From the IMG/VR virus record IMGVR_UViG_3300045994_000296, positions 1 to 38,310 of that record: a DNA stretch of 38,310 bases; one strand, written 5' to 3'. The notes below the pieces were generated by a model, which ran no database searches, had not been told where the DNA came from, and saw nothing but the letters and a program-made list of their open reading frames with translations. Positions 19,961 to 34,548 of the stretch are shown piece by piece. Positions within the stretch are counted from its first letter, which is position 1. Each line of letters starts with the position of its first letter. Source of the stretch: a virus. The translations under genes and the position numbers were made by a program.

Positions 19961-22405
19961 TCATAATTCGCACTTTTCAAAGGCTGTTTTAAATGCCTGA
20001 ACGCTCCTGGTAAACCAAAGCGTTTCAGTTTCATCCAATTTTTGCGAAAATCCGCTCGCCTGTAACACTTCCGAAGGTGGGATGTATACGGTAACGGGGC
20101 GTCTACTCCCGTTCGGCGATAGAATCTGCACACGTTTTTTATCCCAGCCGGACATATGACAAACGGTTGAGGCAAAGCCCCGCTGATTCCGCTGATTTCG
20201 TTCATTGTTATCTCGACACCAGCGCATATAGGCAGCAAACAAATCCATGCCATCACTCGGACAAACTGGATAGCCAAGCTCACCATCAAGGTATTGTTTG
20301 ATAAATGCAAACTCGTTAGACACACTGAGATCGATCAACCGTTGCTTTGAATCGGTCATCGGCGGGCGCTTTTTAGGGTGAAAATCACTCAGGTCAATTC
20401 CGAGCAGGTAATCATAGAAAGCTTGAATACCGCCGTTTTCCATTTCAATAAAAACGTTGTCGTAATATTCTGCTGGTAGCATCGGCGGAGTCCATACCAC
20501 CAGATGACGGCGATCATCATTTTCCAGCGGAAGCGGCTGCCCTTCGTTCGATAGATAGACCACATTGATGTGATTACGCTGGCGATAGGCCGCAATATTC
20601 TTTGGGTTGATCCGGATCCATTCACCGGTAACTAATTCCTTGAGTTCATTCTTGATGTGCCACATCTCAGCACGGGTCACAACTTCCTCAGCAAGAATGA
20701 ATAGCTTTGAGTCTGACCAATCGCTGTTGAACTTATCTTCCAGTCCACGCTGGTTAAGCACCGTCGAGTAATCACCATAGATTTTTGACAGCGCCTGGAA
20801 TACGGTGGATTTACCCGTCCCTTGTGGCCCGTGCATGATGACCGCAGATGACATCTTTGCCCCGGGGTTTTGTAACGGGTAAGCCATCCAACACAACAGC
20901 CACTTATAAACATCATGAGAATTGCTTTCGCCGCTGCATAAATACTCAAGCAACTCCAACAAATAGACACATGAGCCGCGTTTAGGCTGGAGCGGCCATC
21001 CATTCCAGGTGTTCAATTGCACATTCGCATCATTCCCGGACGGGTCAAACCCGACCTGATCCAGAAAATATGCTCCCCGCTCCACCCAATCAGGATCACG
21101 CTTGACGTCATCCCATCGCACCCCGGCAGGCAATAGCGCCTGCATCTGCTCCTTCATGACAACTTTGTTTGTCCACTTATCGAAAAGATATTTCCCTGTC
21201 CCGTCATCCAGTGGAACGAATCGTTCGATCGCCTCATTGATCGGCATCACGGATAAGGCTTTGCGCCGACCTCCATTTTCCCCGCCCCCCTGTGGTTGAG
21301 ATCCCGCGCGCGGGACAGCATCGCGCCACTTCATTTCATCAAGTTTGGCATTGATTTGGTCAGCCAGCGTGAGGGGTAACCCCGTCATCACCAGCAGATC
21401 GTTGAAGTCGGTGAGTTTTTTCCCGCCTCGTTGATCGTTGCCAGCTGCATCTGTCGGAAACGTAGGCTTTACCCAGGCACTGTTTTCGATTGCAGCACAG
21501 GAAGCGGCTGCCGCTGCGCAGCCCGGATTTCCTTCAGTCAGATAGTCGTCATCGGCACAGAACAACAGGCGCAGACGCGGGTAATCTTTGGCAAGTTGCC
21601 GCCCAGCCTTGATGAGATTATTTGCGCTGAAGGCATAAGCGATACTCTGTCCTGTTGCTTCATGCAGACTAGCCGCTGTGGCATACCCTTCCGCGATCAG
21701 CATAATTCCTTCACGTCGAACCGAACCGATCAGCCCGAACGTGCCGCCCATCGCCATACCAGTTGGCCAGAATTCTTTGTCACGCTCTATTTTGGTCCGG
21801 CGCGGATGCCCCTTCTCGTAGATGAACTGCAACCCCTGAATGACGCCCTTGGCATCATGCATCGGCACGATCAACGCGCCGGCTGCAGCCTTAATGCGGT
21901 AGAAATTTGACTCATCGATACCTTCCAACGTCATATCGCTGGTATCGTCTGGCAAAATTCGCAGCCCATGCGGCTTGATCTGTTTGATATTCAAGTACTC
22001 GTGCGACTCGCACGGGGTAGATTTTGCCCATACCGACGCCGCCCACTGGGCAGCACGCTTCACCTCTGACTTGCGAACTGCCTCTAGTTTTTTTTCAGCC
22101 TCCTTATGGGCGGCGCGCATTGCGGCACGATCATCATCGGTCAGCGCATCGTCATCATTTTTGCTGAAAGTGATCTTGCATTTCCCGTCATCGTTCCCGT
22201 GCCAGACGCCATACACGCCGACGATGTAAGTCTTGCCAGAATTAGATTGCCACTCACGAAGCCGTGTCCAGCCGCGCTTTTCAGTACCTTCATCCTCAAC
22301 CTTCCAGCGCTGAATCTTTGCATCAAAATTAAGTGGGGGTACGACAATCAATCCCGCATTGCGCAGCTGCTGAAGCACTTCGTCGTAGTTTGTCCAGGTA
22401 GTCAT
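19961..22405 (-). CDS. Replication primase/helicase (TOPRIM plus SF3-like helicase), 814 aa
   Basis: The protein begins with an oligonucleotide-binding-like N-terminus (WK VEDEGTEKRGWTR). A TOPRIM primase follows near residues 230-330 (LIAEGYATAASLHEATG, then CADDDYL). From about residue 450 comes a phage/plasmid D5-type helicase. Its Walker A is GPQGTGKST with Lys about 532, the Walker B region is KLFILAEEVV, and the sensor region is HINVVYLSNEGQPLPLENDDRRHLVVW. It should unwind and prime the phage origin. It is the last gene of the early minus operon, start-coupled to the 236-aa gene (ATGA). The C-terminal ~110 residues (MDLFAAYMRWCRDNNERNQ) resemble a winged DNA-binding end. Confidence 0.92.
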   Translation of the reverse strand: MTTWTNYDEVLQQLRNAGLIVVPPLNFDAKIQRWKVEDEGTEKRGWTRLREWQSNSGKTYIVGVYGVWHGNDDGKCKITFSKNDDDALTDDDRAAMRAAHKEAEKKLEAVRKSEVKRAAQWAASVWAKSTPCESHEYLNIKQIKPHGLRILPDDTSDMTLEGIDESNFYRIKAAAGALIVPMHDAKGVIQGLQFIYEKGHPRRTKIERDKEFWPTGMAMGGTFGLIGSVRREGIMLIAEGYATAASLHEATGQSIAYAFSANNLIKAGRQLAKDYPRLRLLFCADDDYLTEGNPGCAAAAASCAAIENSAWVKPTFPTDAAGNDQRGGKKLTDFNDLLVMTGLPLTLADQINAKLDEMKWRDAVPRAGSQPQGGGENGGRRKALSVMPINEAIERFVPLDDGTGKYLFDKWTNKVVMKEQMQALLPAGVRWDDVKRDPDWVERGAYFLDQVGFDPSGNDANVQLNTWNGWPLQPKRGSCVYLLELLEYLCSGESNSHDVYKWLLCWMAYPLQNPGAKMSSAVIMHGPQGTGKSTVFQALSKIYGDYSTVLNQRGLEDKFNSDWSDSKLFILAEEVVTRAEMWHIKNELKELVTGEWIRINPKNIAAYRQRNHINVVYLSNEGQPLPLENDDRRHLVVWTPPMLPAEYYDNVFIEMENGGIQAFYDYLLGIDLSDFHPKKRPPMTDSKQRLIDLSVSNEFAFIKQYLDGELGYPVCPSDGMDLFAAYMRWCRDNNERNQRNQRGFASTVCHMSGWDKKRVQILSPNGSRRPVTVYIPPSEVLQASGFSQKLDETETLWFTRSVQAFKTAFEKCEL

Positions 22406-23119: not shown

Positions 23120-23323
23120 TCAATGGGCGATCGAGTTGACTAAGTTTGAAACTCCACACCCTAGCGCAACATCGAGGCTCGGATTACCCGCAGTGGATAA
23201 ACCCAGGGAGTACCTTAAAACCGGACGCTGTTGAGTGTTGCGTTGCAGAGTTGCAAGAGCGCGCAACTGTGACGCAATGCTGCGCTTACCAACCTGACGG
23301 GGAGCGGGGTTATTGATCCTCAT
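23120..23323 (-). CDS. Small basic hypothetical protein after CII, 67 aa
   Basis: The ATG overlaps the CII-family stop as ATGA, so it is translationally coupled. The protein is basic at the start (MRINNPAPRQVGKRSIASQL), with a low-complexity second half. No family was recognised. The coupling and the 7-base gap to the next gene are the main reasons to believe it. The composition is less convincing than its neighbours. Confidence 0.45.
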   Translation of the reverse strand: MRINNPAPRQVGKRSIASQLRALATLQRNTQQRPVLRYSLGLSTAGNPSLDVALGCGVSNLVNSIAH

Positions 23324-23766
23324 AGCTGTACTCCTTGCGCTTGCATCGCTGCAAGGATGGCTTCAAGCCTTCCGGACTGAGCGACCATCTCGGCGAGTTC
23401 CTTGCGGATGCTGCGCAGTTCGATGGCGGTTACCCTGCCATCAGCCAGTGAGTTGGTCACGCTCTTCAGGTAGCCTGCGAACTCCTCGCAGGTCTTGACG
23501 ATCGCAGATGTGATGTCCTGATCAGCTACCTCAGGCAGTTGCAACGCCATGTGCCCGTTGTCCATACACAGCGTATGCAGTGCACGGTAGTCACCTGTCA
23601 GCATCATGATCTGCTCCATGTCGCGTACTGTGACGTGATTGGTCGCATCGTTTGGGTTTAACTTATGCGACAGAACTGATGGATTAACCTGCATCCGTGC
23701 AGCCAGGGCGCGGATCGCCCCCGGATATTCGTGTGCAGACAAATAGAGTGCATCGAGCATAGACAT
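23320..23766 (-). CDS. cII: CII-family phage regulator (Phage_CP76 / CII type), 148 aa
   Basis: The N-terminal ~70 residues form a helix-turn-helix of the Phage_CP76 type. Key pieces are SAHEYPGAIRALAARMQVNPSVL, SHKLNPNDATNHVTVRDMEQI and TGDYRALHTLC. The C-terminal half is a coiled coil (SAIVKTCEEFAGYLKSVTNSLADGR...ELRSIRKELAEMV). Relatives are the CII-like activators of lysogeny in proteobacterial phages. It lies after a tR1-like terminator downstream of cro, as cII does in lambda. An AAAGGGAGT site lies before the ATG. Confidence 0.88.
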   Translation of the reverse strand: MSMLDALYLSAHEYPGAIRALAARMQVNPSVLSHKLNPNDATNHVTVRDMEQIMMLTGDYRALHTLCMDNGHMALQLPEVADQDITSAIVKTCEEFAGYLKSVTNSLADGRVTAIELRSIRKELAEMVAQSGRLEAILAAMQAQGVQL

Positions 23767-24744: not shown

Positions 24745-25026
24745 TTACGCGGCCTCCTGTGTTTGATTGGATTCGCGGTCAGCCGATGCGCCAAACACAT
24801 CCGGGCGCAACTCGTACCGGGTTACCGCGCCATTGGTGATTTCTTCGATGGCCCGGCAGTGTTCAGCAGGCGGCGTGGGCGACTCGCTGTTCAGCCAGTT
24901 CCATACGTGCGCCTGAGCAACTTTGACCACAGTTCCGTTCTGCGCATGCCAGATCCTGATTTCAGCAGCTAGTTTTACCTGACCGCCAACGAGTTCAACT
25001 GACTTTAATAGTGGGGAAATTTTCAT
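24745..25026 (-). CDS. cro: Cro-like repressor (YdaS antitoxin / Cro family), 93 aa
   Basis: The start at 25026 (MKISPLLKSVELVGGQVKLA) is used instead of the upstream frame start that lies inside the operators. The helix-turn-helix is LVGGQVKLAAEI...VVKVAQAHVWNWLNSE, followed by PAEHCRAIEEITNGAVTRYELRPDVFG. That is the YdaS-like ending common in Cro proteins of proteobacterial prophages. It is divergent from cI across three shared operators and starts the early minus operon. It is expected to shut cI expression during lytic growth. Confidence 0.88.
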   Translation of the reverse strand: MKISPLLKSVELVGGQVKLAAEIRIWHAQNGTVVKVAQAHVWNWLNSESPTPPAEHCRAIEEITNGAVTRYELRPDVFGASADRESNQTQEAA

Positions 25027-25035
25027 GATGCGCTC

Positions 25036-25065
25036 AGAATACAACGATACTTGTTGCAAGGTCAA
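25036..25065 (-). promoter_or_regulatory. Early rightward promoter (PR equivalent) driving cro
   Basis: On the minus strand TTGACC (25065-25060) is followed by an 18-base spacer and TATTCT (25041-25036). Operator 25041-25054 lies in the spacer, and operator 25065-25078 touches the -35. Bound repressor would therefore block it. Confidence 0.7.
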
Positions 25066-25102
25066 CAATTTTCATTGTTTGACTGCTTACAACTTTGTTT
25101 GT
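25041..25102. promoter_or_regulatory. Triple operator between cro and cI
   Basis: Three ACAA-N6-TTGT palindromes lie at 25041-25054, 25065-25078 and 25089-25102. Their centres are exactly 24 bp apart. The third extends to TTACAA-N6-TTGTAA. This is the expected binding array for CI and Cro. The same half-sites recur at 26691-26728. Confidence 0.85.
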
Positions 25103-25107
25103 AAAAC
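25079..25107 (+). promoter_or_regulatory. cI promoter (PRM equivalent), apparently leaderless
   Basis: TTGACT at 25079-25084, a 17-base spacer and TAAAAC at 25102-25107 predict a transcript start at about 25114, one base before the cI ATG. No ribosome site precedes the ATG. A leaderless cI mRNA, as in lambda, is likely. Operator 25089-25102 lies in the spacer. Confidence 0.6.
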
Positions 25108-25114
25108 TGTAGTT

Positions 25115-25465
25115 ATGAATCTTTCAGAGCGAATTGTCCTAGCGCGGACACATGCGAAGCTAACACAAAGGCAATTAGCTGATTTATCTGGAGTCACTCA
25201 GCAGTCGATTTCATTGCTTGAAAAAGGAAAGCAGAAACAAACTACTGAGATCGTTTCAATAGCAGTGGCTTGCGGCGTGAGATCTGAATGGTTGGCTCTA
25301 GAGCAAGGCGAAATGGTAAACGGCTTGCATATTGAAGACGAACGCATCAAACGTGGCGTCACTATCCTGGAACAAATGCAGGCGGATAACCGACTAGACG
25401 ACGCAATGGAGTTGCTTGATTCGATTGCTAAATTCAGCCGAAAAGCCAGTGGCGAGAACAAATAA
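25115..25465 (+). CDS. cI: CI-like repressor, short form without protease domain, 116 aa
   Basis: An N-terminal Xre/Cro-type helix-turn-helix is visible at residues 5-60 (RIVLARTHAKLTQRQLADLSGV, TQQSISLLEKGKQKQTTEIV, SEWLALEQGE). The remaining ~50 residues form a helix that could dimerise (RIKRGVTILEQMQADNRLDD). The S24/LexA-like self-cleavage domain of classic repressors is absent, so SOS induction would need an antirepressor or another route. The ATG at 25115 fits the leaderless promoter. The upstream frame through the operators is not used. Confidence 0.88.
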   Translation: MNLSERIVLARTHAKLTQRQLADLSGVTQQSISLLEKGKQKQTTEIVSIAVACGVRSEWLALEQGEMVNGLHIEDERIKRGVTILEQMQADNRLDDAMELLDSIAKFSRKASGENK

Positions 25466-25515
25466 CGTAATTCAGCTGCAAATTCAATTAAAATTTGATT
25501 TTTAAAGAGGATTTT

Positions 25516-26049
25516 ATGGCGCTTATTAAATGTACCGAATGCGGTAAGGAAGTTAGCGATCAGGCTAAGGCATGCCCGCAATGTGGTGCCAAGAAATTCA
25601 AGCCGAAGCCAGCGAAAAAACCTCTTGGACTTTTTGCATGGACAATGATCGCGGGATTTTCGGTTTTAGCCGCAGTTAGTTCATTCTTGCCAAAAAATAC
25701 AACTCAAACACCTACTCAAACACCAGAACAGATCGCCGCAAAGACTAAGAGAGATGGTCAGTTAGAGACTGGCGCATTAGGCGCAATTGCGCTAAAGAAT
25801 CGCATGAAAGACCCGGAGGCTTTCAATCTGACTGGCGCAAACGTCAAAGACAATGGCGCAACCTGCTACGAATACCGGGCTAAAAACGGCTTTGGTGCAA
25901 TCTTTCCTGGCAGCGCTGTACTAACCAGCAAGGGCGATATCTATGTATCTGATCAAGGAGATAAATTTACCCGCGCCTGGAACAGGGAATGTGCAGGAAA
26001 ATCAGGCGAGGATATCAAATCAAAAGTCCGGATGATGGGCGTACTTTAA
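25516..26049 (+). CDS. Zinc-ribbon membrane protein downstream of cI, 177 aa
   Basis: The N-terminus has a zinc ribbon (CTECGKEV, then CPQCGAKKF), a basic stretch (KPKPAKK) and one membrane segment (LGLFAWTMIAGFSVLAAVSSFL, about residues 37-57, in parts). An outer domain of ~115 residues with two Cys (TCYEYRAKNGFG, RECAGKSG) follows. AAAGAGGA precedes the ATG. It is probably co-expressed with cI in the lysogen, so superinfection exclusion or lysogenic conversion is a reasonable idea. The family of zinc-ribbon plus membrane proteins is common, but this function is inference. Confidence 0.8.
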   Translation: MALIKCTECGKEVSDQAKACPQCGAKKFKPKPAKKPLGLFAWTMIAGFSVLAAVSSFLPKNTTQTPTQTPEQIAAKTKRDGQLETGALGAIALKNRMKDPEAFNLTGANVKDNGATCYEYRAKNGFGAIFPGSAVLTSKGDIYVSDQGDKFTRAWNRECAGKSGEDIKSKVRMMGVL

Positions 26050-26109
26050 TTAAACCGTGACAAATACACCAACCCCAGATCTATCACACATCCGGAACCA
26101 AAACGTGCC

Positions 26110-26370
26110 ATGAGTGTCATCGACTTCACCGACTATAAAAAGAATCTAGCCGGCAACACACCTAAAAAAATAACATTTAGGGGCGCTGTATACTTTGACG
26201 ACACCAAGACTCCCTCTTCACTCAACTTCATTTTTACCATCGCAGATGGTGATGTTGCAGGAGTGATCGAAGCCGCAAAAGAATTCGGCGGCATACCCTA
26301 TACCACCGATGACGGGAAAACCCTTTTTCTTCCTTGGCCACCAGCAGCCATCGAGATTGAAGATATCTAG
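26110..26370 (+). CDS. Hypothetical acidic protein of the lysogeny operon, 86 aa
   Basis: The protein opens MSVIDFTDYKKNLAGNTPKKITF and reads as a compact alpha/beta protein (SSLNFIFTIADGDVAGVIEAAKEFG, then FLPWPPAAIEIEDI). There is no signal or membrane segment and no family was recognised. It is last in the cI transcription unit, before the terminator at 26651. Its 3' part overlaps the opposite gene 26234-26632 by 137 bases, which may couple their expression negatively. Confidence 0.6.
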   Translation: MSVIDFTDYKKNLAGNTPKKITFRGAVYFDDTKTPSSLNFIFTIADGDVAGVIEAAKEFGGIPYTTDDGKTLFLPWPPAAIEIEDI

Positions 26371-26632
26371 TGAAATCTTCGGCGCTATTCACTTTCACCC
26401 CTGAAGCCTGAACGGAAGATATTTTCGACTGGCCGCGCTCTCTAACGTAGATCGCAAGGCTCTCCTGTAAAGCTTCAGCAATATTCCGTGCGCTTGCCTC
26501 ATCAAGCGATACACGTACCACCCCTCCTTCGCCCATCTCAAATATTACCCCGATCCGGCCAGCCCTCCTGTCAAACCGCGTGGCTCTACCCCACATCGCC
26601 CGTTTATAGCAATTTGGCAACTTAAATAGCAT
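26234..26632 (-). CDS. Small early gene opposite the lysogeny operon, up to 132 aa (distant paralogue of 24403-24744)
   Basis: The ATG at 26632 has AAGGA at proper spacing; the ATG at 26638 is too close to it. Residues about 20-65 (RRAGRIGVIFEMGEGGVVRV, SLDEASARNIAEALQESL) align with the cro-linked gene 24403-24744. The tail beyond about residue 85 is antisense to 26110-26370 and less protein-like, so the functional part may be the first ~90 residues. It is driven by a promoter inside the second operator cluster, and hence probably repressed by CI. Its transcript would run antisense towards cI. Confidence 0.55.
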   Translation of the reverse strand: MLFKLPNCYKRAMWGRATRFDRRAGRIGVIFEMGEGGVVRVSLDEASARNIAEALQESLAIYVRERGQSKISSVQASGVKVNSAEDFTRYLQSRWLLVAKEEKGFSRHRWYRVCRRILLRLRSLLQHHHLRW

Positions 26633-26650
26633 TGTCATATCCTTAATTTT

Positions 26651-26680
26651 AACCGCCAGATGTCCTGACGGTTTTTATTT
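26651..26680 (+). terminator. Rho-independent terminator after the cI operon
   Basis: AACCGCCAG (26651-26659) and CTGACGGTT (26665-26673) form a nine-pair stem with one mismatch and a five-base loop, followed by TTTTTATTT. It faces plus-strand transcription from the cI unit and insulates the second operator region from it. Confidence 0.75.
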
Positions 26681-26685
26681 TACCT

Positions 26686-26733
26686 TAAATACAATTATTC
26701 TTGTTGACGTATCAACAATTATAATTGTATAGT
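26686..26733. promoter_or_regulatory. Second operator cluster with divergent promoters (PL equivalent)
   Basis: Two ACAA-N6-TTGT palindromes lie at 26691-26704 and 26715-26728, centres 24 bp apart as in the cro/cI region. The plus promoter is TTGACG (26704-26709), an 18-base spacer and TATAGT (26728-26733). It drives the DUF2303-DGR-int operon. The minus promoter is TTGATA (26715-26710), an 18-base spacer and TATTTA (26691-26686), towards the gene ending at 26234. Bound repressor would block both. Confidence 0.75.
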
Positions 26734-26739
26734 ATCTCC

Positions 26740-26933
26740 CATACCGCAACCACAGCGGAGATGCGCTGCCAAGGTGACGCGAGCCGTAGTCCTCCATATC
26801 GGGGCCAACACGAAAAAAAATGGATTCATGGAAGTTGACGGTGCAAGTCCATGTCTGAATAAACCGTACTGCCGGCAGCCAGATAAAACTGCCAACCAAG
26901 CAAAAACCGACAAACTTACACAGGTAAATCATC
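26740..26933 (+). other. Long, probably structured 5' leader of the plus early operon
   Basis: About 195 bases separate the promoter from the first gene. Visible elements are CATGGA (26827-26832) with TCCATG (26849-26854) as a hairpin, the perfect palindrome CTGCCGGCAG, and GGCAG/CTGCC pairing across a short A-rich loop. A 12-codon open frame (ATG at 26820) has no ribosome site. No known RNA family was recognised. An antitermination RNA (put- or nut-like) would suit an 8.7-kb operon but is inference. Confidence 0.4.
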
Positions 26934-27116
26934 ATGCCAAATTCAAAATTTAAATTTGAACTCGAACAACAGGTAACCATCACCGCCAGCGGCGAAACCG
27001 GTGAAGTAATTGGTCGCGCCGAATATGCGTATGCCGAAAAATCCTACTTTATTCGTTACAAATGCGGCAATGGCTGCGCGGTTGAAGCATGGTGGACTGA
27101 ATCTGCGCTGTCTTAA
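26934..27116 (+). CDS. Small beta-rich phage protein, first gene of the DGR/int operon, 60 aa
   Basis: The protein (MPNSKFKFELEQQVTITASG, then GEVIGRAEYAYAEKSYFIRY and WWTESALS) looks like a small beta barrel of the SH3/KOW style (GE.G.V.GRA.Y). An AGG lies ten bases before the ATG. Similar short proteins often open recombination operons of siphoviruses, but the role is unknown. There is no signal peptide. Confidence 0.7.
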   Translation: MPNSKFKFELEQQVTITASGETGEVIGRAEYAYAEKSYFIRYKCGNGCAVEAWWTESALS

Positions 27117-27169
27117 AACAAAACATACCTTTTAGATAACTAAAATTACTAATTGCGAAGGAAGAAATC

Positions 27170-27520
27170 ATGTCAAAACCTATCAACGAAACGCTGCGTC
27201 TGCTCAGCGGCGATACAGAGGGAAGCAACTTTCTCGATGATGTTTCCAACGCGATGGCCGAGCTGGTGACCGCCGTCGATTCCACCGGCAAAGGCGGCGA
27301 ACTCAACATCAAGATCGTTCTGAAAAAAGCGACGCGCGGTGCTGTATCGGTAGCCGGTAAGTATTCGATCAAGAAACCGGTCACTGCGCCAGACGTTACG
27401 CTGCTGTTCAGTACGCCTGAAGGCAATCTGCTGACACAAGATCCACGTCAGCAAAATCTGGAGCTCAAAACCGTCGCCCAGGCCATTGCTGTACCACTCA
27501 AACAAGTAGGAGAAATGTAA
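27170..27520 (+). CDS. Hypothetical protein paired with DUF2303, 116 aa
   Basis: GAAGGAAG precedes the ATG. The protein begins MSKPINETLRLLSGDTEGSN and has a central strand region (GGELNIKIVLKKATRGAVSVAGKY, in parts) and a TPEGNLLTQDPRQQ loop. It is usually found directly before DUF2303 genes in phage genomes and may act with it. No catalytic motif is visible. It is soluble and mildly basic. Confidence 0.75.
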   Translation: MSKPINETLRLLSGDTEGSNFLDDVSNAMAELVTAVDSTGKGGELNIKIVLKKATRGAVSVAGKYSIKKPVTAPDVTLLFSTPEGNLLTQDPRQQNLELKTVAQAIAVPLKQVGEM

Positions 27521-27522
27521 TC

Positions 27523-28353
27523 ATGCAAGAAAATCAAGAAAATATCGCCGCTACAGTCGCGCGTGAAGCACGTAAGCCATTTCCTTTACCGGACAAACCA
27601 GCTTATGTCGCTGTTCCAGATGGCTGGAATCTTCAAGATACCGAAGCGCTTGATGCTTGTCCGCGCCGTAAAAAATCTACCGTCAGCCTGGACGACGACA
27701 CCGGCTATATCGATTACATCAAGCGCCATGGCGCGCCTGACCTCACCACAATCTGGTGCGATGCAGATTATGAAAAAGGTCGTATCGGCTATACCTGCGT
27801 GCTGAATGATCATGCTGGTGATGAAGGCGGTCAGGAATGGCGTGACCATATCGCCCGTTTTACTCCGGCTCAATCGGTAGAGTGGAAACGCTGGATCGAC
27901 AAAGACGGCAAGGTTATGGATCAACTTGAGTTCGCGACATTCATCGAAAACAATCTAGCTGACATTGCAACCACTGAAGGCCTGCCATCTGGTACGGACA
28001 TGTTGCACATGTCTACCAACCTTGAGATTACTCAGGACTCAAGCATCAAGAGCGCAATCCGCATGCAAAGCGGCGGTGTGCGCATTAGCTATATCGAGGA
28101 TGAAAACGCCGAGACGGCCAAGTTCATGGAGGTTTACAGCCAGTTTGCCATCGGCATTCCGGTGTTTCGCGGCAGCGATGCATACCAGGTAAACGCCCGC
28201 CTTAAATATCGCCTGAACGGCGGAAAGCTCAAGTTCTGGTATGAGCTGATCCGCGCAGACAAGGTAATGGAAGCGTCAGCAAAAAGCCTGACAGTGAAGA
28301 TTCAGGAACAAACGACCTTTCCTATATTCCACGGCAATCCATTCGCAAGATAA
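27523..28353 (+). CDS. DUF2303 phage protein, 276 aa
   Basis: The protein fits DUF2303: an N-terminal YVAVPDGW.L.D.EAL segment, SLDDDTGYIDYIKRHG, TTIWCDADYEKG and VLNDHAGDEGGQEWRDH. A C-terminal beta part follows (F..YS.FAIGIPVFRG, LKYRLNGGKLKFWYEL). These proteins sit in early recombination/replication operons of many phages, and their function is not established. AGGAG lies upstream of the ATG. It is probably cotranscribed with the DGR. Confidence 0.88.
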   Translation: MQENQENIAATVAREARKPFPLPDKPAYVAVPDGWNLQDTEALDACPRRKKSTVSLDDDTGYIDYIKRHGAPDLTTIWCDADYEKGRIGYTCVLNDHAGDEGGQEWRDHIARFTPAQSVEWKRWIDKDGKVMDQLEFATFIENNLADIATTEGLPSGTDMLHMSTNLEITQDSSIKSAIRMQSGGVRISYIEDENAETAKFMEVYSQFAIGIPVFRGSDAYQVNARLKYRLNGGKLKFWYELIRADKVMEASAKSLTVKIQEQTTFPIFHGNPFAR

Positions 28354-28362
28354 CTTAATACG

Positions 28363-28384
28363 CCCTGCCCGGCTTCGGGTAGGG
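28363..28384 (+). other. Stable intergenic hairpin after DUF2303
   Basis: CCCTGCCCG (28363-28371) pairs with CGGGTAGGG (28376-28384), with one G-T pair and a GCTT loop. No T tract follows, so it is unlikely to terminate. The next ribosome site (AGGAG) starts immediately after it, which suggests mRNA protection or translation control of the following GTG-started gene. Confidence 0.5.
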
Positions 28385-28398
28385 AAAAGGAGAAAATC

Positions 28399-28833
28399 GT
28401 GCCTCAACTTCCACCAAAAGATCCGCCCCCAGACCCAGCAAATCAATATCTCCAAAAAATCGAGTTTGGCGGATTGATTTGGGAGAAGTCACGCCGATCT
28501 GATACCAATGAATACACCGCTCATCATCCGGATATTGGAGATTTGCGCATATTCCAATATCCGAAAGAATCTTCATGCGACGGAGAATGGCTTTGGAATG
28601 CTGATATAGACATCCTATTTTCCAGGGATGACGCTCCAAAATATATAGAGACGCGCGTCAGCAATATCGTGGAAACAGCAGAAGAGGCAATGGCTCACTG
28701 CCTGCGCGCCAGGGAATACTTGATCGAGGACATCAAAAAACTATCAATGCATTTTAAAGTTGGCGGTTACCCCAGCGGGTTTGAAGATGGTCAGGCGGCA
28801 CTTGCTAAAAAAATTGCTGCGGTGATGCCATGA
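28399..28833 (+). CDS. Hypothetical phage protein with GTG start, 144 aa
   Basis: The GTG at 28399 follows AAAAGGAGA at good spacing. The N-terminus is proline-rich (MPQLPPKDPPPDPANQYLQK), followed by an alpha/beta body (IWEKSRRSDTNEYTAHHPDIG, DIGDLRIFQYPKESSCDG) and a helical end (AREYLIEDIKKLSMHF). No family was recognised. It may be a cytosolic early protein. The gene ends in an ATGA overlap with the next gene. Confidence 0.7.
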   Translation: MPQLPPKDPPPDPANQYLQKIEFGGLIWEKSRRSDTNEYTAHHPDIGDLRIFQYPKESSCDGEWLWNADIDILFSRDDAPKYIETRVSNIVETAEEAMAHCLRAREYLIEDIKKLSMHFKVGGYPSGFEDGQAALAKKIAAVMP

Positions 28834-29033
28834 CAGAAACGACTTTCTACGTGAACGTCTCTGCGGATCGGATGGATGTCTGTGATGGCGCCATCATCGC
28901 TTACATGATGACCAATCCAGACTCCAGCGTCGATGACGCTTTAGATGCCATTTTTAATGTGGGTATGAATGTCGTCATCGCCATCAACCCAACTTTCCAA
29001 AACAATCAACCAGATGAGGTCTGCATATGCTGA
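28830..29033 (+). CDS. Small acidic hypothetical protein, 67 aa
   Basis: It is coupled to the previous gene by ATGA. The text MTETTFYVNVSADRMDVCDG and SSVDDALDAIF is acidic and contains a short hydrophobic patch (GMNVVIAINPTF), not clearly a membrane segment. The role is unknown. The end overlaps the next small gene by seven bases. Confidence 0.6.
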   Translation: MTETTFYVNVSADRMDVCDGAIIAYMMTNPDSSVDDALDAIFNVGMNVVIAINPTFQNNQPDEVCIC

Positions 29034-29182
29034 ACCGAGCAATCCTTGTTCCGCGCCGCAAGCCATATACGCAAACGCACTGGACTGTGCGTGTAATCCG
29101 CTGCATTCAACATTTCCGATACTACCGAAAACAGAGAATGTGCATCTCCGTTTCCTGGGCGCTTGCGAGGCACACACTATGA
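29027..29182 (+). CDS. Very basic 51-aa protein
   Basis: This short gene lies between two coupled genes: GAGG eight bases before ATG 29027, stop overlapping the next start as ATGA. The product is strongly basic and aromatic (LVPRRKPYTQTHWTVRVIRC, then FRYYRKQR). That resembles small phage proteins of the RYYR type often seen in early operons. It may bind nucleic acid or membranes. Position and coupling are the main evidence. Confidence 0.6.
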   Translation: MLNRAILVPRRKPYTQTHWTVRVIRCIQHFRYYRKQRMCISVSWALARHTL

Positions 29183-29358
29183 GCACTCTTAACCTAAAAA
29201 TTACCGCGTTACGCCAAGCTGCAATCGATGCTGCGGTCGAACTAGACTGGACAAAAAATGAACCAGGTGTACAGCCTGAAATTCAAGAGCGAGCAGTCAG
29301 CATCATCCAGCGCGTGTTCGCAGCCTGCGAAGCTTTAGATGAGGCTGAAAAGCCATGA
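29179..29358 (+). CDS. Small helical hypothetical protein, 59 aa
   Basis: The start at 29179 (MSTLNLKITALRQAAIDAAV) is supported by the ATGA overlap with the basic gene and a GAGG nine bases upstream. The longer frame from 28969 would override two coupled genes. It is mostly helical with an acidic end (ACEALDEAEKP) and couples to the next gene by ATGA. Function unknown. Confidence 0.65.
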   Translation: MSTLNLKITALRQAAIDAAVELDWTKNEPGVQPEIQERAVSIIQRVFAACEALDEAEKP

Positions 29359-29918
29359 GCAAGCCTAAAGCAAAGCGCGATAAAGCCTATCGCCCTAAAG
29401 GTGTGCGGATCCCGGTCACTAGTCTGCGTGATGAATTTGGCATTGTGCTGCACAGCTGCATCGTCGCTGCGCGCAATGGGCATTTCGATAAATCTCAATT
29501 TGACCGCATCGGGCAGGCGATCAATTGCGTATGGGGCGCGCTGTATTTAAAGCCGCCGAAAGACATCTCGGTGATGACGGTTGTTGAAGGTGCTATGCGC
29601 GCGATGAATGATGTATCTGAGCGCGGCGATGCAACCGGACACTGGTTGCTGCGCGATTTTGAGCAGGCCGCCGTACTGGCAGGCATCCGCAAGATCGAAG
29701 AACAACTCCCCTACATGGACGTGATGATGCTGTATCGCGCCATGCAGGAAATGAAAACGCTCTCTCTCGCAGAACGCACGATTCGCTCGGAAGATATTCA
29801 ATCCATCAATATTCTCAACGAAAAAACGGGCGAAATTATCCGAATTGAAAGAGCAGCAGTAGGCAAGTTAACTAACCATAACAGCAAGGAGAATAGCAGT
29901 GAAACCAATCGAATTTGA
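29355..29918 (+). CDS. Helical phage protein upstream of the DGR, 187 aa
   Basis: The N-terminus is Lys/Arg-rich (MSKPKAKRDKAYRPKGVRIP). A helical body follows (DEFGIVLHSCIVAARNGHFD, AINCVWGALYLKPP, LLRDFEQAAVLAGIRKIEEQL). Proteins of this make-up are common but unnamed in early regions of proteobacterial phages. The start is coupled by ATGA. The last codons overlap the GTG start of the first DGR target, so translation may continue into the DGR genes. Confidence 0.65.
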   Translation: MSKPKAKRDKAYRPKGVRIPVTSLRDEFGIVLHSCIVAARNGHFDKSQFDRIGQAINCVWGALYLKPPKDISVMTVVEGAMRAMNDVSERGDATGHWLLRDFEQAAVLAGIRKIEEQLPYMDVMMLYRAMQEMKTLSLAERTIRSEDIQSINILNEKTGEIIRIERAAVGKLTNHNSKENSSETNRI

Positions 29919-30462
29919 TCTTGGTGGCGGCGTAAAAATGGCGCTGCCTACCGAAACTGTCGTACGCAACCTACTCGACAGCCTACGCCAACAACCCAGC
30001 ACTACCAAGTCCAGCAGCCCGAGAATAGGCGAATACCTGACAACGGAGGGCGGCATCTATGCCGGCGACATTCTGGGTGATGACAAGGTTTTGTACGGGC
30101 TAGTCATCAGCGAGGAAATCGAGATCGGCACGGCGATCTTTGGCCATGAGCATAACGGCGATCTGTCGCAATGGAATGGCCTGTCTAACACCAATACGCT
30201 GCTCGGAAAATCACCAGCTGCCGACTTAGCTGCGAATTATGAGCGCAACGGGCATTGTGACTTTTATCTGCCTGCGCGCCGTGAGCTGATGATTGCGCTG
30301 GCGAATGTTCCGCAGCTGTTCAACCCGAAAGACTATTACTGGTCAAGCACCCCGCGCGGCAATGATTGTGCGTGGGCAGTGTACTTCGAGGGCGGCATCG
30401 TCCGCAACAACACTCGGGGCAACGAGTTCCGTGTTCGCCCCTTCCGCAGATTTACCCATTAA
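29899..30462 (+). CDS. DGR target protein 1 with C-type-lectin/DUF1566-like fold, 187 aa
   Basis: The GTG at 29899 follows AAGGAG. Residues ~1-40 are a helical head (FDLGGGVKMALPTETVVRNL). From ~43 a DUF1566/CLec-like domain begins (RIGEYLTTEGGIYAGDI, FYLPARRELMIALANV, DYYWSSTPRGNDCAWAVYF). VR1 covers residues 158-183. Codons 165, 167, 169-172, 174 and 175 correspond to Asn codons of the template and now read G, I, R, N, N, T, G, N. The scaffold ends NEFRVRPFRRF. No signal peptide or membrane segment is visible, so the variable surface is presented in the cytosol or on the virion. Confidence 0.88.
   Translation: MKPIEFDLGGGVKMALPTETVVRNLLDSLRQQPSTTKSSSPRIGEYLTTEGGIYAGDILGDDKVLYGLVISEEIEIGTAIFGHEHNGDLSQWNGLSNTNTLLGKSPAADLAANYERNGHCDFYLPARRELMIALANVPQLFNPKDYYWSSTPRGNDCAWAVYFEGGIVRNNTRGNEFRVRPFRRFTH
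30371..30448 (+). repeat. DGR variable repeat 1 (VR1)
   Basis: This 78-bp repeat aligns without gaps to TR 31461-31538. Eight template adenines are replaced (A to G five times, A to C twice, A to T once). There is a single non-adenine change, G to T at 30382, near the 5' end. The 28 bases at the 3' side are identical. Both VRs have G after the terminal CGCA where TR has A, the usual IMH versus IMH* contrast. Confidence 0.93.
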
Positions 30463-30494
30463 CCCATTTATCAATTTTTAACAGGAGAATCACC

Positions 30495-30911
30495 ATGAAC
30501 GAAAAGAAAATCACGGTACCCAAAATAGGCGAACTTTGGGCAGAGCAAGGCGGTATTTATTGTGGTATGCGCCTCATAGGCGGCGAGGAACATCACGTTG
30601 TCACGCCTGCCGGTATTGATCACGACCTCACTGAAAAAAATTTTGCCGCAGCGGAATCTGCACAGTTCGGCGAAATCAACGGCCATAGCGATTGGCAGAC
30701 TGGTGAGCAGGAAGATTACATGCTGGCATATGTCAACGCGCGCGCGCAATTCAAGTGCGACGGCGGCATGGATAGCGTTTACTGGACACGCTCTGTTCAT
30801 CACGGCTGGGCGTGGGCAGTGGACTTCGAGGACGGCACCGTCTACTACGACGGTCGGTACAACGAGTTCCGTGTTCGCCCCTTCCGCAGCTTCATCGCTT
30901 CATCAATTTAA
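30495..30911 (+). CDS. DGR target protein 2 with C-type-lectin/DUF1566-like fold, 138 aa
   Basis: The ATG at 30495 follows AGGAG. The N-terminal body (KIGELWAEQGGIYCGMRLIG, GHSDWQTGEQEDYMLAYVNA) is a shorter relative of target 1. DSVYWTRSVHHGWAWAVDF then leads into the variable end. VR2 covers residues 106-131; the eight template Asn codons read D, T, Y, Y, D, G, Y, N. Tyr, Asp and Gly dominate, as in binding surfaces. The protein ends FRVRPFRSFIASSI. It lies 32 bases after target 1, so both are cotranscribed. Confidence 0.88.
   Translation: MNEKKITVPKIGELWAEQGGIYCGMRLIGGEEHHVVTPAGIDHDLTEKNFAAAESAQFGEINGHSDWQTGEQEDYMLAYVNARAQFKCDGGMDSVYWTRSVHHGWAWAVDFEDGTVYYDGRYNEFRVRPFRSFIASSI
30811..30888 (+). 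repeat. DGR variable repeat 2 (VR2)
   Basis: This 78-bp repeat aligns without gaps to TR 31461-31538. Eight positions differ inside the shared block and all eight are adenines in TR (A to G four times, A to T three times, A to C once). There are no changes at C, G or T. The identical 3' segment runs from AACGAG to CCGCA. Confidence 0.95.
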
Positions 30912-30918
30912 CAATTTC

Positions 30919-30933
30919 GCGGGCGTAGCCCGC
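30919..30933 (+). other. Hairpin 30 bases after VR2, just before avd
   Basis: GCGGGC and GCCCGC flank a GTA loop. DGRs often carry a hairpin or cruciform shortly after the variable repeat that assists target recognition. The position fits this for VR2. It also stands seven bases before the avd ATG, where a ribosome site would be expected but is absent. VR1 has no equivalent hairpin. Confidence 0.6.
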
Positions 30934-30940
30934 TAAAACT

Positions 30941-31288
30941 ATGGCACTCCATACTGACACAGCAATTTACAAGGCGACTTACCAACTGGCACAGTTGGTG
31001 ATGCAACTCGTAGCAAACATGCCCAGAAACTATAAGGCAGATTTCGGCGCTGAATTGAGAAGACGTTGCATGGGGCTGGTGATGCGTACCTACGAGGCGA
31101 ATACGTCGCAGGAAAAGGCACCAATCCTAAGCAAAATGCGGCAGGAAGTTGAGGCGGTTAATCTGTCTCTTCGCCTTGCTGTTGACTTGCGTCTTATATC
31201 TCATAGTCAGTATGGGAAAGCTATAGCCATCACGGCAAGCATTGGGAAGCAAGCTACCGGATGGCAGAGGAAATCGGAATGCGCTTGA
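30941..31288 (+). CDS. avd: DGR accessory variability determinant (Avd-like), 115 aa
   Basis: The size and helical build fit the Avd four-helix bundle. Pieces are MALHTDTAIYKATYQLAQLV, MQLVANMPRNYKADFGAELR, LSKMRQEVEAVNLSLRLAVD and YGKAIAITASIGKQATGWQR, the last resembling the basic Avd tail. Avd pentamers bind the DGR reverse transcriptase and template RNA. Lys and Arg are frequent, as needed for RNA contact. It lies between the targets and TR, the common order. No ribosome site is visible; a hairpin precedes the ATG. Confidence 0.85.
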   Translation: MALHTDTAIYKATYQLAQLVMQLVANMPRNYKADFGAELRRRCMGLVMRTYEANTSQEKAPILSKMRQEVEAVNLSLRLAVDLRLISHSQYGKAIAITASIGKQATGWQRKSECA

Positions 31289-31460
31289 CGCCGACTTTGC
31301 CAAGGCAATTTGGACAACGCGCTATGAATCTGGTCGAGCCGCTAGGGTACGCCCTACCGCCATGCGCATCAGAAATATCGTCGGCGAATGCCGAAATGAT
31401 TTCGCGCAGTTTTCTAATTGAAGCAATGCCTCGATTTGAAAACGTGAATAGCTTGAATAT
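31289..31460 (+). other. Gene-free spacer between avd and TR (probable upstream part of the DGR template RNA)
   Basis: No convincing gene is seen. Two other frames stay open here, one continuing into the reverse transcriptase frame and one reading IWTTRYESGRAARVRPTAMR, but neither has a start with a ribosome site. In studied DGRs, sequence flanking TR is transcribed with it and folds for cDNA priming, which would explain conservation without coding. Confidence 0.5.
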
Positions 31461-31538
31461 CGTGGGCAGTGGACTTCGAGAACGGCAACGTCAACAACAA
31501 CAATCGGAACAACGAGTTCCGTGTTCGCCCCTTCCGCA
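31461..31538 (+). repeat. DGR template repeat (TR)
   Basis: This is an adenine-rich 78-bp block directly before the reverse transcriptase. In the VR frame it encodes WAVDFENGNVNNNNRNNEF and then RVRPFR. Eight asparagine codons (AAC or AAT, 16 adenines) mark the mutable positions, and 11 of these adenines differ in at least one VR. In its own setting this frame has a stop just upstream, so TR is not translated as a variable protein. The base after CGCA is A (31539), unlike both VRs. Confidence 0.95.
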
Positions 31539-31557
31539 AATTCAACCGAGATTTTCT

Positions 31558-32658
31558 ATGGATACTGAATATTCAATCGAATTACTGGCCGAGGCATATA
31601 AAGACTGCCGCCGCCATAAACGCAACACAGACAGCGCACTCCGCTTTGAGCAGAATCTTGAGCACAACCTGATTGCTTTGCACGATGAACTGTCAGACGG
31701 CTCATATAAGCCAGGGAAAAGCATCTGCTTTGTCATCACCAAACCAAAGCCGCGCGAAGTATGGGCAGCGGACTTTCGCGACCGCATCGTGCATCACCTT
31801 CTCTACAACCGCCTTGCGCCGATATTCCACGCCAGATTTATTGTTGATAGCTGCGCCTGCATACCGGGTCGAGGCACGCTATACGGCGCAAAACGGCTTG
31901 AATCGAAGGTGCGCAGCATCACTCAGAACTGGAGCAAACATGCGTATTACCTGAAACTGGATCTGGCCAACTTCTTTGTCAGCATCGACAAGAATATCTT
32001 GCGCAAACTGATCGCAAAGCGTGTCACCGAACCGTGGTGGATGCAGCTAGCCGACACGATCCTGTTTCACGATCCGCGCCAAAACTATGAGCTGCGCGGT
32101 GAGCCTCGCATGCTCGACTTGGTGCCGTCACACAAACGTTTAACCAACCACCCAGCACACCTCGGCTTGCCGATTGGTAATCTCAGCAGCCAGTTCTTCG
32201 CCAATATCTACCTGGACGAGTTAGACCAGTTCTGCAAACACAAGCTACAGGCGCGCCACTATATCCGCTATGTGGACGACTTCCTGATTCTGCATGAATC
32301 ACCGCAATGGCTCAACGCGGCCAAAGCCGAGATTGAAGAGTTTCTGTTCGACGAATTGCGTGCCAAGATTAACCCATCAAAAACCATCCTGCAGCCGGTG
32401 TCGCGCGGCGTCGACTTTGTTGGACAAGTAATTCGGCCTTGGCATAGAACGACGCGCAAACGCACCATCAATGAGGCGATGCGCCGCGTCAGCACTGTCG
32501 ATAGCGCAGAACTCTACGAAACAGCGAATAGCTACTTTGGGCTTATGCGTCAGGCTACTCACAGCTATCACCAAAGAGTATTGCTATCGAATGTCCTGCG
32601 TAAACGCGGCCATACGATCAGTGCCAATTTAACCAAGACTTATAGGAAAACAGCATGA
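31558..32658 (+). CDS. DGR-type reverse transcriptase, 366 aa
   Basis: The ATG at 31558 (MDTEYSIELLAEAYKDCRRH) is chosen because it lies just past TR; the upstream open frame would translate TR itself. Catalytic pieces are first Asp 135 in KLDLANFF and the YVDD box at 238-241. The DGR-specific IGNLSSQ is at 206-212, where other reverse transcriptases usually have QG...SP. The fingers region has KPREVWAADFRDRIVHHLL. It copies TR RNA into cDNA with errors at adenines. The stop overlaps the next gene (ATGA). Confidence 0.95.
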   Translation: MDTEYSIELLAEAYKDCRRHKRNTDSALRFEQNLEHNLIALHDELSDGSYKPGKSICFVITKPKPREVWAADFRDRIVHHLLYNRLAPIFHARFIVDSCACIPGRGTLYGAKRLESKVRSITQNWSKHAYYLKLDLANFFVSIDKNILRKLIAKRVTEPWWMQLADTILFHDPRQNYELRGEPRMLDLVPSHKRLTNHPAHLGLPIGNLSSQFFANIYLDELDQFCKHKLQARHYIRYVDDFLILHESPQWLNAAKAEIEEFLFDELRAKINPSKTILQPVSRGVDFVGQVIRPWHRTTRKRTINEAMRRVSTVDSAELYETANSYFGLMRQATHSYHQRVLLSNVLRKRGHTISANLTKTYRKTA

Positions 32659-32921
32659 CTGAACTAACCCTATTTTTATCTACCGCCTCGCTAGTCTTTG
32701 CGCTGGGGCTGCAACAGCTCAACGTACAGGGTCATCATTACATGCTGGCAGCGCTAACTAGTTTCCTAATCGGCGGCGCACAGATCTACCTGTGGCGCAC
32801 TATGCCAGGCGCATCCGGAAGCGAGATCATTGCCACCCTATGCGGCGGCCCGGTCGGGATTCTGGCAGCAATGTACTCACACCCTAGGTTAGTTCGGTTT
32901 TTATTGCGGAGAAAATCATGA
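32655..32921 (+). CDS. Small membrane protein after the DGR reverse transcriptase, 88 aa
   Basis: Three hydrophobic segments are visible: LTLFLSTASLVFALGLQQL, YMLAALTSFLIGGAQIYLW and IIATLCGGPVGILAAMY. A basic end follows (RLVRFLLRRKS). The ATG overlaps the reverse transcriptase stop. Similar small proteins of phages are called putative holins or membrane proteins, but the lysis cassette is elsewhere, so this one may act at entry, in exclusion or at the membrane with DGR products. Confidence 0.7.
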   Translation: MTELTLFLSTASLVFALGLQQLNVQGHHYMLAALTSFLIGGAQIYLWRTMPGASGSEIIATLCGGPVGILAAMYSHPRLVRFLLRRKS

Positions 32922-33361
32922 TCACTCCTCAATATATTCTCGACATTAATGAAGAAATCATCGTCGATAATTTCGCTGGCGGAGGTGGTGCATCTACGGG
33001 TATTGAACTAGCGCTGGGGCGCCATGTAGATGTGGCTATCAATCACGATCCAGAAGCCGTATCTATGCATCAAGCAAATCACCCGCAGACGGTACACCAC
33101 TGCGAATCGGTATGGGAAGTTAACCCGCGCGAAGTCATGCCAGGACGCTCAATCGGTCTGCTCTGGCTGTCACCGGACTGCAAGCACCACAGTAAGGCTA
33201 AGGGCGGAAAGCCAGTAGAGAAGAACATTCGCGGCCTCGCTTGGGTGGCACTGCGCTGGATAGCGGTACGCAAACCACGCGTCATCATGCTTGAAAACGT
33301 CGAAGAATTTCAAAAGTGGGGCCCGCTACCAAAATATCAATCGCAGGGAGCATCGGCATGA
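32918..33361 (+). CDS. Truncated DNA cytosine-5 methyltransferase, 147 aa
   Basis: Methyltransferase motif I is FAGGGGASTGIELALG. Motif IV is LLWLSPDCKHHSKAKGG, with the catalytic Cys in the PDC form used by many phage enzymes. Motif VI is MLENVEEF. The protein then stops after KWGPL, whereas family members continue for 200 or more residues with the target-recognition domain and motifs IX and X. The stop is coupled to the next gene by ATGA, so the short form looks fixed. Alone it is probably inactive; a partner subunit or a cofactor-binding role is possible. Confidence 0.85.
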   Translation: MITPQYILDINEEIIVDNFAGGGGASTGIELALGRHVDVAINHDPEAVSMHQANHPQTVHHCESVWEVNPREVMPGRSIGLLWLSPDCKHHSKAKGGKPVEKNIRGLAWVALRWIAVRKPRVIMLENVEEFQKWGPLPKYQSQGASA

Positions 33362-33591
33362 ATGACATTGAAAATCAGGTAATCAATTGCATCGCAGATC
33401 AGACCGGCCACGATCCGGAACATATTAATCCATCTGACACGCTCCATTCTCTAGAAATGGATGAGATTGATCGGTGCGAACTGGCGATGATGATTGAGGA
33501 TCATTTCGATATCGTAATCAAGGATGCAGACGCTGAAAAATGGAGATCCGTACAGGACGTAATCAATCACATGATAAGGGCAAAACCATGA
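33358..33591 (+). CDS. Acyl-carrier-protein-like phage protein lacking the phosphopantetheine serine, 77 aa
   Basis: The ATG at 33358 has GGGAG eight bases upstream and overlaps the methyltransferase stop. The fold pattern is that of acyl carrier proteins: I...VI..IADQTG, HINPSDTLHSLEMDEIDRCE, then LAMMIEDHFDIVIKDADAEK and SVQDVINHMI. The normal DSL serine is replaced by Glu 36 (MDEID), so the prosthetic group cannot be attached there. It may mimic modified carrier protein or bind host partners. The gene is coupled to the next one. Confidence 0.85.
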   Translation: MNDIENQVINCIADQTGHDPEHINPSDTLHSLEMDEIDRCELAMMIEDHFDIVIKDADAEKWRSVQDVINHMIRAKP

Positions 33592-34298
33592 GCGACGTAT
33601 GCACAGAGCAGCGCTTCCTTACAGATGCCGCGCAGCATGAAATGACGATCATCCGCGATGATGGTGTGCACCGGCACATTCAATTCAAGCGGCCCGGTAC
33701 CAGATGCTACCAGTTCGACCTGATCACATGGCCGGGATACCTATGCTACACGGGCGATATGGGAACCTATGTATTCACTCGGCTGCGCGATATGTTTGAG
33801 TTCTTTCGCACCGACCGCGCCCACCTGCGACTTAAAGACGGGCAGACGCTGGCAATCAATCCGGGCTATTGGGGTGAAAAGCTTGAGGCGGTTGATAAGT
33901 GTGACGGCTTCAAAGAGTTCAGCGAAGAAAAGTTTAAGCGCTCTGTGATGGAGTATCTAGTTCGATGGATTCGTGAAAACTACAGTGATACCGACAAGGA
34001 CGAGCGGCGCGAACTATGGGATGAGGTAATGAGTCAGGTTATCGATGTTGATGATGACAATAGCGGGAGCCGTAAGCAGGCCGCAGTGCACGACTTTACA
34101 CGCCATGTAAATCAGGCCCTTGACTTTGAATTCGTGGACTTCTGGGAGCACGACCTTACCGACTATTCATTCCGATTTATGTGGTGCTGCTATGCGGTGG
34201 CATGGGGCGTGCAGAAATACGACGAAAAGAAGGCAGAGCCATGCGCTCATGTTGTTTGCGAGGCCGATGTATGTGCAAAGTGTGGGGATGCAGCATGA
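33588..34298 (+). CDS. Conserved phage protein of unknown function, 236 aa
   Basis: The start at 33588 (MSDVCTEQRFLTDAAQHEMT) is coupled to the carrier-like gene. The N-terminal ~80 residues (IRDDGVHRHIQFKRPGTRCYQFDLITWPG, in parts; then YTGDMGTYVFTRL) match a very common unnamed family of proteobacterial phages. The middle is helical and acidic (FKEFSEEKFKRSVMEYLVRW). The end has two paired Cys (CEADVCAKCGD). Function unknown; the family occurs in early operons before excisionase and integrase. Confidence 0.8.
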   Translation: MSDVCTEQRFLTDAAQHEMTIIRDDGVHRHIQFKRPGTRCYQFDLITWPGYLCYTGDMGTYVFTRLRDMFEFFRTDRAHLRLKDGQTLAINPGYWGEKLEAVDKCDGFKEFSEEKFKRSVMEYLVRWIRENYSDTDKDERRELWDEVMSQVIDVDDDNSGSRKQAAVHDFTRHVNQALDFEFVDFWEHDLTDYSFRFMWCCYAVAWGVQKYDEKKAEPCAHVVCEADVCAKCGDAA

Positions 34299-34323
34299 AG
34301 GAATTTATAAAGGATGGTGTGTG

Positions 34324-34548
34324 ATGAGCATGTTCATCTCTAGCAATGAACTCGCTGAGCTAACTGGCTACAAGGTTGGGTTCTATCAAGCACAGTGGCT
34401 CAAGGATCACGGCTACCCGTATGAGCTGACAATCAGCGGGAAACCACGTGTCCTGCGCGCATTCGTTGAAAAGCGCCTCGGGCTTGCCAGCGTAATTCCA
34501 AAGTCGCAAACTGAGCCTGACTTTTCATCCTGGAAGAGAGCCGCATAA
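34324..34548 (+). CDS. DUF4224 excisionase-like protein, 74 aa
   Basis: The protein (MSMFISSNELAELTGYKVGF, AQWLKDHGYPYELTISGKPR) fits DUF4224, small helix-turn-helix proteins found next to phage integrases and taken to be excision factors. AAAGGA precedes the ATG at nine bases. The longer frame from 34120 overlaps the previous gene and is rejected. The stop overlaps the integrase start (TAATG), so both are made together. It would steer the integrase towards excision. Confidence 0.88.
   Translation: MSMFISSNELAELTGYKVGFYQAQWLKDHGYPYELTISGKPRVLRAFVEKRLGLASVIPKSQTEPDFSSWKRAA

Follow-up and report, generated by a model that had tools for sequence, protein, structure and literature searches.

ACAA-N6-TTGT is the operator motif of phage 434, whose 48-kb genome contains five exact copies, all of them at OR1, OR2 and OL1-3; OR3 has ACAG. 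Phage lambda orders its immunity region as cro, OR, cI, accessory genes, OL and an early operon running towards int. In Pseudomonas phage D3, three annotated operators of 14 bp lie exactly 24 bp apart and cI starts 12 nt past OR3. Phage P2 has C, a short HTH repressor of 99 aa without an autocleavable domain. Our literature searches found no paper on the phage group described here.

The window (the whole stretch of DNA analysed) is a metagenomic record of a temperate phage, 38,310 bases long. Its first 251 bases (1-251) return at 38060-38310 with one mismatch, so that it probably represents a complete genome, either circular or permuted, though its two ends are not exactly identical. The window shares the lambda layout, and differs from lambda in that the latter has 17-bp operators, another operator sequence, a repressor of another length and three OL sites. 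The likeness to 434 comprises the ACAA/TTGT half-site with its 6-bp centre, the three OR sites between cro and cI, the location of OL downstream of cI, the pRM -35 beside OR2 and its -10 beside OR3, the same interlock of promoters and operators, and the 434-like HTH of CI. In contrast to 434, the window has operators spaced by 24/24 bp (22/23 in 434), two OL sites (three in 434), a CI of 116 aa that lacks the LexA-like domain at its C-terminus, a Cro from another family and, in family scans, no recognised N-like gene. The spacing and cI start of D3 also apply to the window, and the D3 CI HTH is 55% identical to that of the window over 67 residues, whereas D3 has an ATGGG-type half-site, a DQTSI recognition helix and a full-length cI. 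P2 C, which resembles the window CI in its shortness and gave a weak fold match to the CI model, binds direct repeats of its half-site at a single operator, unlike the palindromes at two places in the window. The arrangement is that of textbook lambda and 434, and no new type of network. Two features are less common: the repressor is short and lacks a C-terminal domain of the LexA type, and a diversity-generating retroelement (DGR) lies inside a predicted repressed operon.

Family scans with PHROG and Pfam showed that the leftward gene set begins with cro and includes a CII-like regulator and a primase. The rightward order is cI, a zinc-ribbon gene, a small gene (26110-26370), OL and then a long operon. 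The slot between cI and OL (25466-26690) appears to hold variable cargo, with another gene beside cI in each relative; in the relatives L001 and L003 (see below) it is filled by a different gene from that of the window. The cargo of lambda in the comparable slot is rexAB. Just before OL, at 26653-26676, a terminator-like hairpin (CCGCCAG-5-CTGACGG followed by TTTTT), mostly kept in L001 and L003 and absent from the terminator scanner output, would part the cI transcript from pL.

Table 1. Positions of the predicted regulatory sites and the genes of the immunity region and pL operon in the window.
Feature	Position	Strand	Description
Candidate operator OR1	25041..25054	+	ACAACGATACTTGT; between pR -35 and -10
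Candidate operator OR2	25065..25078	+	ACAATTTTCATTGT; adjoins the -35 of both pR and pRM
Candidate operator OR3	25089..25102	+	ACAACTTTGTTTGT; within the pRM spacer; without good counterpart in L001
Candidate operator OL2	26691..26704	+	ACAATTATTCTTGT; just upstream of pL -35
Candidate operator OL1	26715..26728	+	ACAATTATAATTGT, perfect palindrome; between pL -35 and -10
Sixth exact ACAA-N6-TTGT	21159..21172	+	Inside the primase gene; all 14 bp equal OR3 (ACAACTTTGTTTGT)
Predicted promoter pR	25036..25065	-	TTGACC-18-TATTCT, reads cro; same placement in L001 and L003
Predicted promoter pRM	25079..25107	+	TTGACT-17-TAAAAC (best reading, from sequence); offset from OR3 as in annotated 434 pRM
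Predicted promoter pL	26704..26733	+	TTGACG-18-TATAGT
cro	24745..25026	-	93 aa, PHROG 35 / Pfam YdaS_toxin family
cI	25115..25465	+	116-aa HTH_3 repressor, 434-like recognition helix TQQSI, without LexA/S24 domain
CII-like regulator	23320..23766	-	In the pR operon (family scans)
Cargo gene between cI and OL	25516..26049	+	Zinc ribbon (Pfam), probable membrane segment
Conserved non-coding pL leader	26738..26815	+	About 80 nt (sequence comparison with relatives)
pL operon	26934..35615	+	DUF2303 gene (27523-28353), two DGR variable genes, avd, template repeat, RT, integrase (34548-35615)
DGR core	30941..32658	+	avd 30941-31288, template repeat (TR) about 31461-31547, RT 31261-32658
DGR variable repeats (VR)	30371-30457 and 30811-30894	+	TR/VR comparison

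Candidate operator sites and their interlock with predicted promoters

The initial annotation had listed five ACAA-N6-TTGT sites in two clusters with an exact 24-bp spacing, and our scan of the window returned all five, centred where they had been placed and spaced by 24/24 bp at OR and 24 bp at OL. Three of these palindromes lie between the divergent cro and cI genes, interlocked with pR and pRM, and the position of OR1 agrees with the 434 and D3 operators. The second cluster stands at an early promoter downstream of cI that reads in the same direction as cI. Instead of many equally good sites elsewhere, the window contains only one further exact site, in coding sequence. The resulting number of six exact sites in 38,310 bp compares with 0.44 expected, and none of 100 shuffles reached six, while pairs exactly 24 bp apart are expected 7e-6 to 6e-5 times in the window under a simple composition model. 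When one mismatch was allowed, the 11 similar sites found in the window fell below the 14.4 expected, so that there is no cloud of weaker sites around the exact ones.

We considered the sixth site as an auxiliary operator. It spells conserved primase codons (T-N-K-V-V), and two synonymous changes remove it from the relative with the closest primase (96% identical), which is a weak test since the immunity motif of this relative differs. The sixth site is probably a coincidence.

Promoter-like hexamers with 18-base spacers had also been reported as flanking both clusters. They do occur at both, as pR and pL, but they are interlocked with the sites and do not flank them. pR and pL follow one design: TTGAC starts in, or adjoins, the final bases of the outer site, the 18 bp between the hexamers are taken up by the inner site, and the final T of this inner site is shared with the -10. 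pRM, with its 17-bp spacer, is combined with OR3 in the same way. Counting such hexamers reveals no excess (three found versus 3.2 expected in shuffles); their support comes from relatives, in which they are placed alike. By analogy with 434, where the annotated pRM start lies 8 nt past the -10, the pRM transcript is predicted to start on A25115, in the cI ATG, or close to it, which would make the cI message leaderless, as it is in lambda. The centre of OR2 is 43.5 bp upstream of the start so predicted, near the position used for activation in lambda.

The repressor and its heteroimmune relatives

The best PDB sequence matches of CI are 434 Cro and 434 repressor, whose helices (TTQQSIEQLE and VKQQSIQLIE) align with VTQQSISLLE in the window. 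The best fold match of the CI model is again 434 Cro (TM 0.92 normalised by target, rmsd 0.9 A), the model confidence being above 85 for residues 1-60 and low beyond; the C-terminal 40 residues are predicted, with low confidence, to form two helices. Both the sequence and the fold matches place the window CI in the 434 class of HTH proteins with a QQ(S) recognition helix. No LexA-like (S24) autocleavage and dimerisation domain was found in the 116-aa protein, the Pfam matches being HTH models only, so that this repressor is unlikely to undergo a RecA-driven autocleavage of the lambda kind.

The best evidence is given by three near relatives whose repressors have different DNA-binding domains. 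They lack ACAA-N6-TTGT, and carry at both OR and OL pairs of a palindrome of their own, 23-24 bp apart. In L001 (IMGVR_UViG_3300045825_000260), the C-terminal part of CI is nearly identical to that of the window whereas the HTH differs (LPQQTISKLE), and ACA[CT]CT-N2-AG[AG]TGT occurs four times in the 37-kb record, only as a pair between cro and cI and a pair at pL, each spaced by 24 bp. In L003/L130 (helix IRQSA), AAC[AG]C-N4-GNGTT has only four occurrences in 18.9 kb, at OR and OL, in pairs 23 and 24 bp apart. In L129, where the CI and Cro genes are different, the best four sites for TTAAAGC-N2-GCTTTAA in 15.5 kb are one 24-bp pair at OR and one at OL. The table of motifs by genomes is close to diagonal: operator specificity matches the repressor and shifts with it, at both places. 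Our comparison thereby supports, as a prediction from sequence, the earlier suggestion of a two-operator network under one repressor, both clusters changing together to a new shared palindrome in relatives with another HTH.

The comparison of the window with L003 showed that the sequences flanking OL are 90-91% (upstream) and 86% (downstream) identical, as opposed to 47% for the 38-bp operator core, in spite of which the -35 and -10 of pL are kept. From this contrast, the OL operators appear to be exchanged or rewritten inside conserved DNA. Conservation also extends over the 640 bp upstream of OL, which makes it unlikely that one solid block from OL to OR was exchanged in a single step between this pair, older recombination not being traceable here. 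In lambdoid phages it is an old question how a repressor can change in concert with operators at two distinct places in the genome. The present phages offer a natural series of near relatives with four operator specificities, in which the change is confined to the operators within conserved flanks, thereby making intermediates and cross-immunity directly testable.

To survey a wider set, we assembled 29 phages, namely 26 loci retrieved with a Cro profile or the leader pattern plus the window, 434 and D3, which are related to differing degrees and hence not independent. A direct search found no CI relatives in bacterial genomes; the Cro profile search recovered a Nitrosomonadales MAG locus (L131) and others. 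The half-site was derived at OR and then searched 400-3500 bp downstream of the start of cro. In most of the 29 phages, the own OR motif gave a pair scoring 17-20 of 20 downstream of cI, while foreign motifs mostly scored no higher than 14-16. For about eight of the 29, this method gave no convincing OL, and most of these also had a weak OR pair. For some distant loci (e.g. L008, L016, L018 and L060) the first-pass motif finding was wrong or weak at OR, and these were not counted as support; L002, a weak match to an unrelated HTH protein, was dropped. L068, which has a 113-aa repressor with the helix TQQNI, has at OR and at OL a pair of ACAA-N6-TTGT sites spaced by 24 bp. L131 and L003 have in common the helix IRQSA and the half-site AACAC, which L131 carries at both places. 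A strict code in which a QQ helix reads AC... was rejected: L134 breaks it by pairing ACAAC operators with a TQAA helix, and on these sequences there is no simple code for operator recognition by the helix. In L009, a cI-like frame (5720-6000) appears broken after the HTH, with the L001-type operators intact; this phage is possibly a decaying or virulent derivative, or the break a sequencing error.

From these lines of evidence, we propose that the five sites are very probably OR1-3 and OL1-2 of a lambda/434-type immunity region, read by the 116-aa CI through its 434-like helix. The nearest competitor holds that they are mainly Cro operators, CI acting chiefly elsewhere or by another mechanism. 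In the heteroimmune relatives, the N-terminal half of Cro indeed co-varies with the sites while its C-terminal half is nearly identical, and since the CI N-terminus, OR and the Cro N-terminus adjoin and change together, the comparison cannot by itself show which of the two proteins reads the sites. However, the 434-type helix expected for ACAA/TTGT sits in CI and not in Cro, which belongs to a different HTH family (PHROG 35/YdaS). CI and Cro share operators in both 434 and lambda, and an exclusive use by Cro would be unusual. We regard this explanation as improbable.

Less probable still is that only OR takes part in the CI switch, OL being bound by a different regulator of coincidentally equal specificity. 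The 1.6 kb that separate OL from OR would leave room for it, but in four genomes with four motifs OL always carries the OR motif of its own genome, and among the window proteins examined we recognised no further regulator of the 434 type. As to chance repeats in AT-rich intergenic DNA, with which the unremarkable number of promoter hexamers would agree, the failure of every shuffle to reach six sites and the recurrence of the 24-bp pairs at both places in relatives speak against them, and the comparison already refutes this reading, to which we attach next to no weight.

The predicted pL operon and its DGR

If the sites are indeed the operators of CI, the switch could operate as follows. A CI dimer would use the 434-like helix to read each ACAA/TTGT half-site. 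In the lysogen, pR (cro, the CII-like gene and replication) would be blocked by CI on OR1/OR2, and pL by CI on OL1/OL2, which would silence the operon of DUF2303, the DGR and the integrase. CI at OR2 would sit where the 434 and lambda repressors activate pRM, thereby sustaining its own synthesis, whereas occupancy of OR3 would shut pRM, providing autoregulation. In the lytic phase Cro probably competes for the same sites, and derepression would release the replication genes leftward and the DUF2303-DGR-int operon rightward. The joint control of the lytic genes and the DGR/int operon, put forward in the initial annotation, stands as a prediction, for which we infer the binding of CI and Cro, the order of occupancy, cooperativity, the transcription units (DGR/int transcription from pL included) and the role of Cro.

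The leader downstream of pL is 84-86% identical to those of L001, L003 and L129, and a pattern search finds it in this group only. It has no Rfam match and folds no more stably than shuffles, and the reading as a known RNA was dropped; it is possibly an antitermination element. A terminator scan of the pL operon yielded only weak plus-strand candidates (16 sites on both strands, compared with 11.4 in shuffles).

The template repeat of the DGR matches Rfam RT-15, and it differs from the variable repeats almost only at template adenines, which is the mark of adenine mutagenesis. The DGR, with its two variable genes (30371-31547), lies in the early pL operon beside the integrase and not among the tail genes. 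In L001, L011 and L068, relatives of the RT (66-76% identical) are encoded on the side and strand of pL, which suggests a recurrent placement; for L001 this presumes a circular record, the first bases of the contig recurring near its end. Since the template RNA, Avd, RT and both variable genes would belong to the CI-repressed pL operon, diversification would be off in the lysogen. We tentatively propose, as a possibility that still falls short of an even chance, that the immunity repressor gates the DGR, with protein diversification off in the lysogen and on at infection or induction, and that, inside conserved DNA, only a small island at OL took on a new specificity when cI and OR, 1.6 kb distant, took on theirs. 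If true, this immunity-DGR link would mean that the lysis-lysogeny switch times the diversification of phage proteins. In any case, the analysis provides a regulatory map, open to testing, of a temperate phage that carries a DGR. Further down the same operon, a short reading frame (32918-33361) resembles, by its sequence, the start of a C5 cytosine methyltransferase and is apparently truncated.
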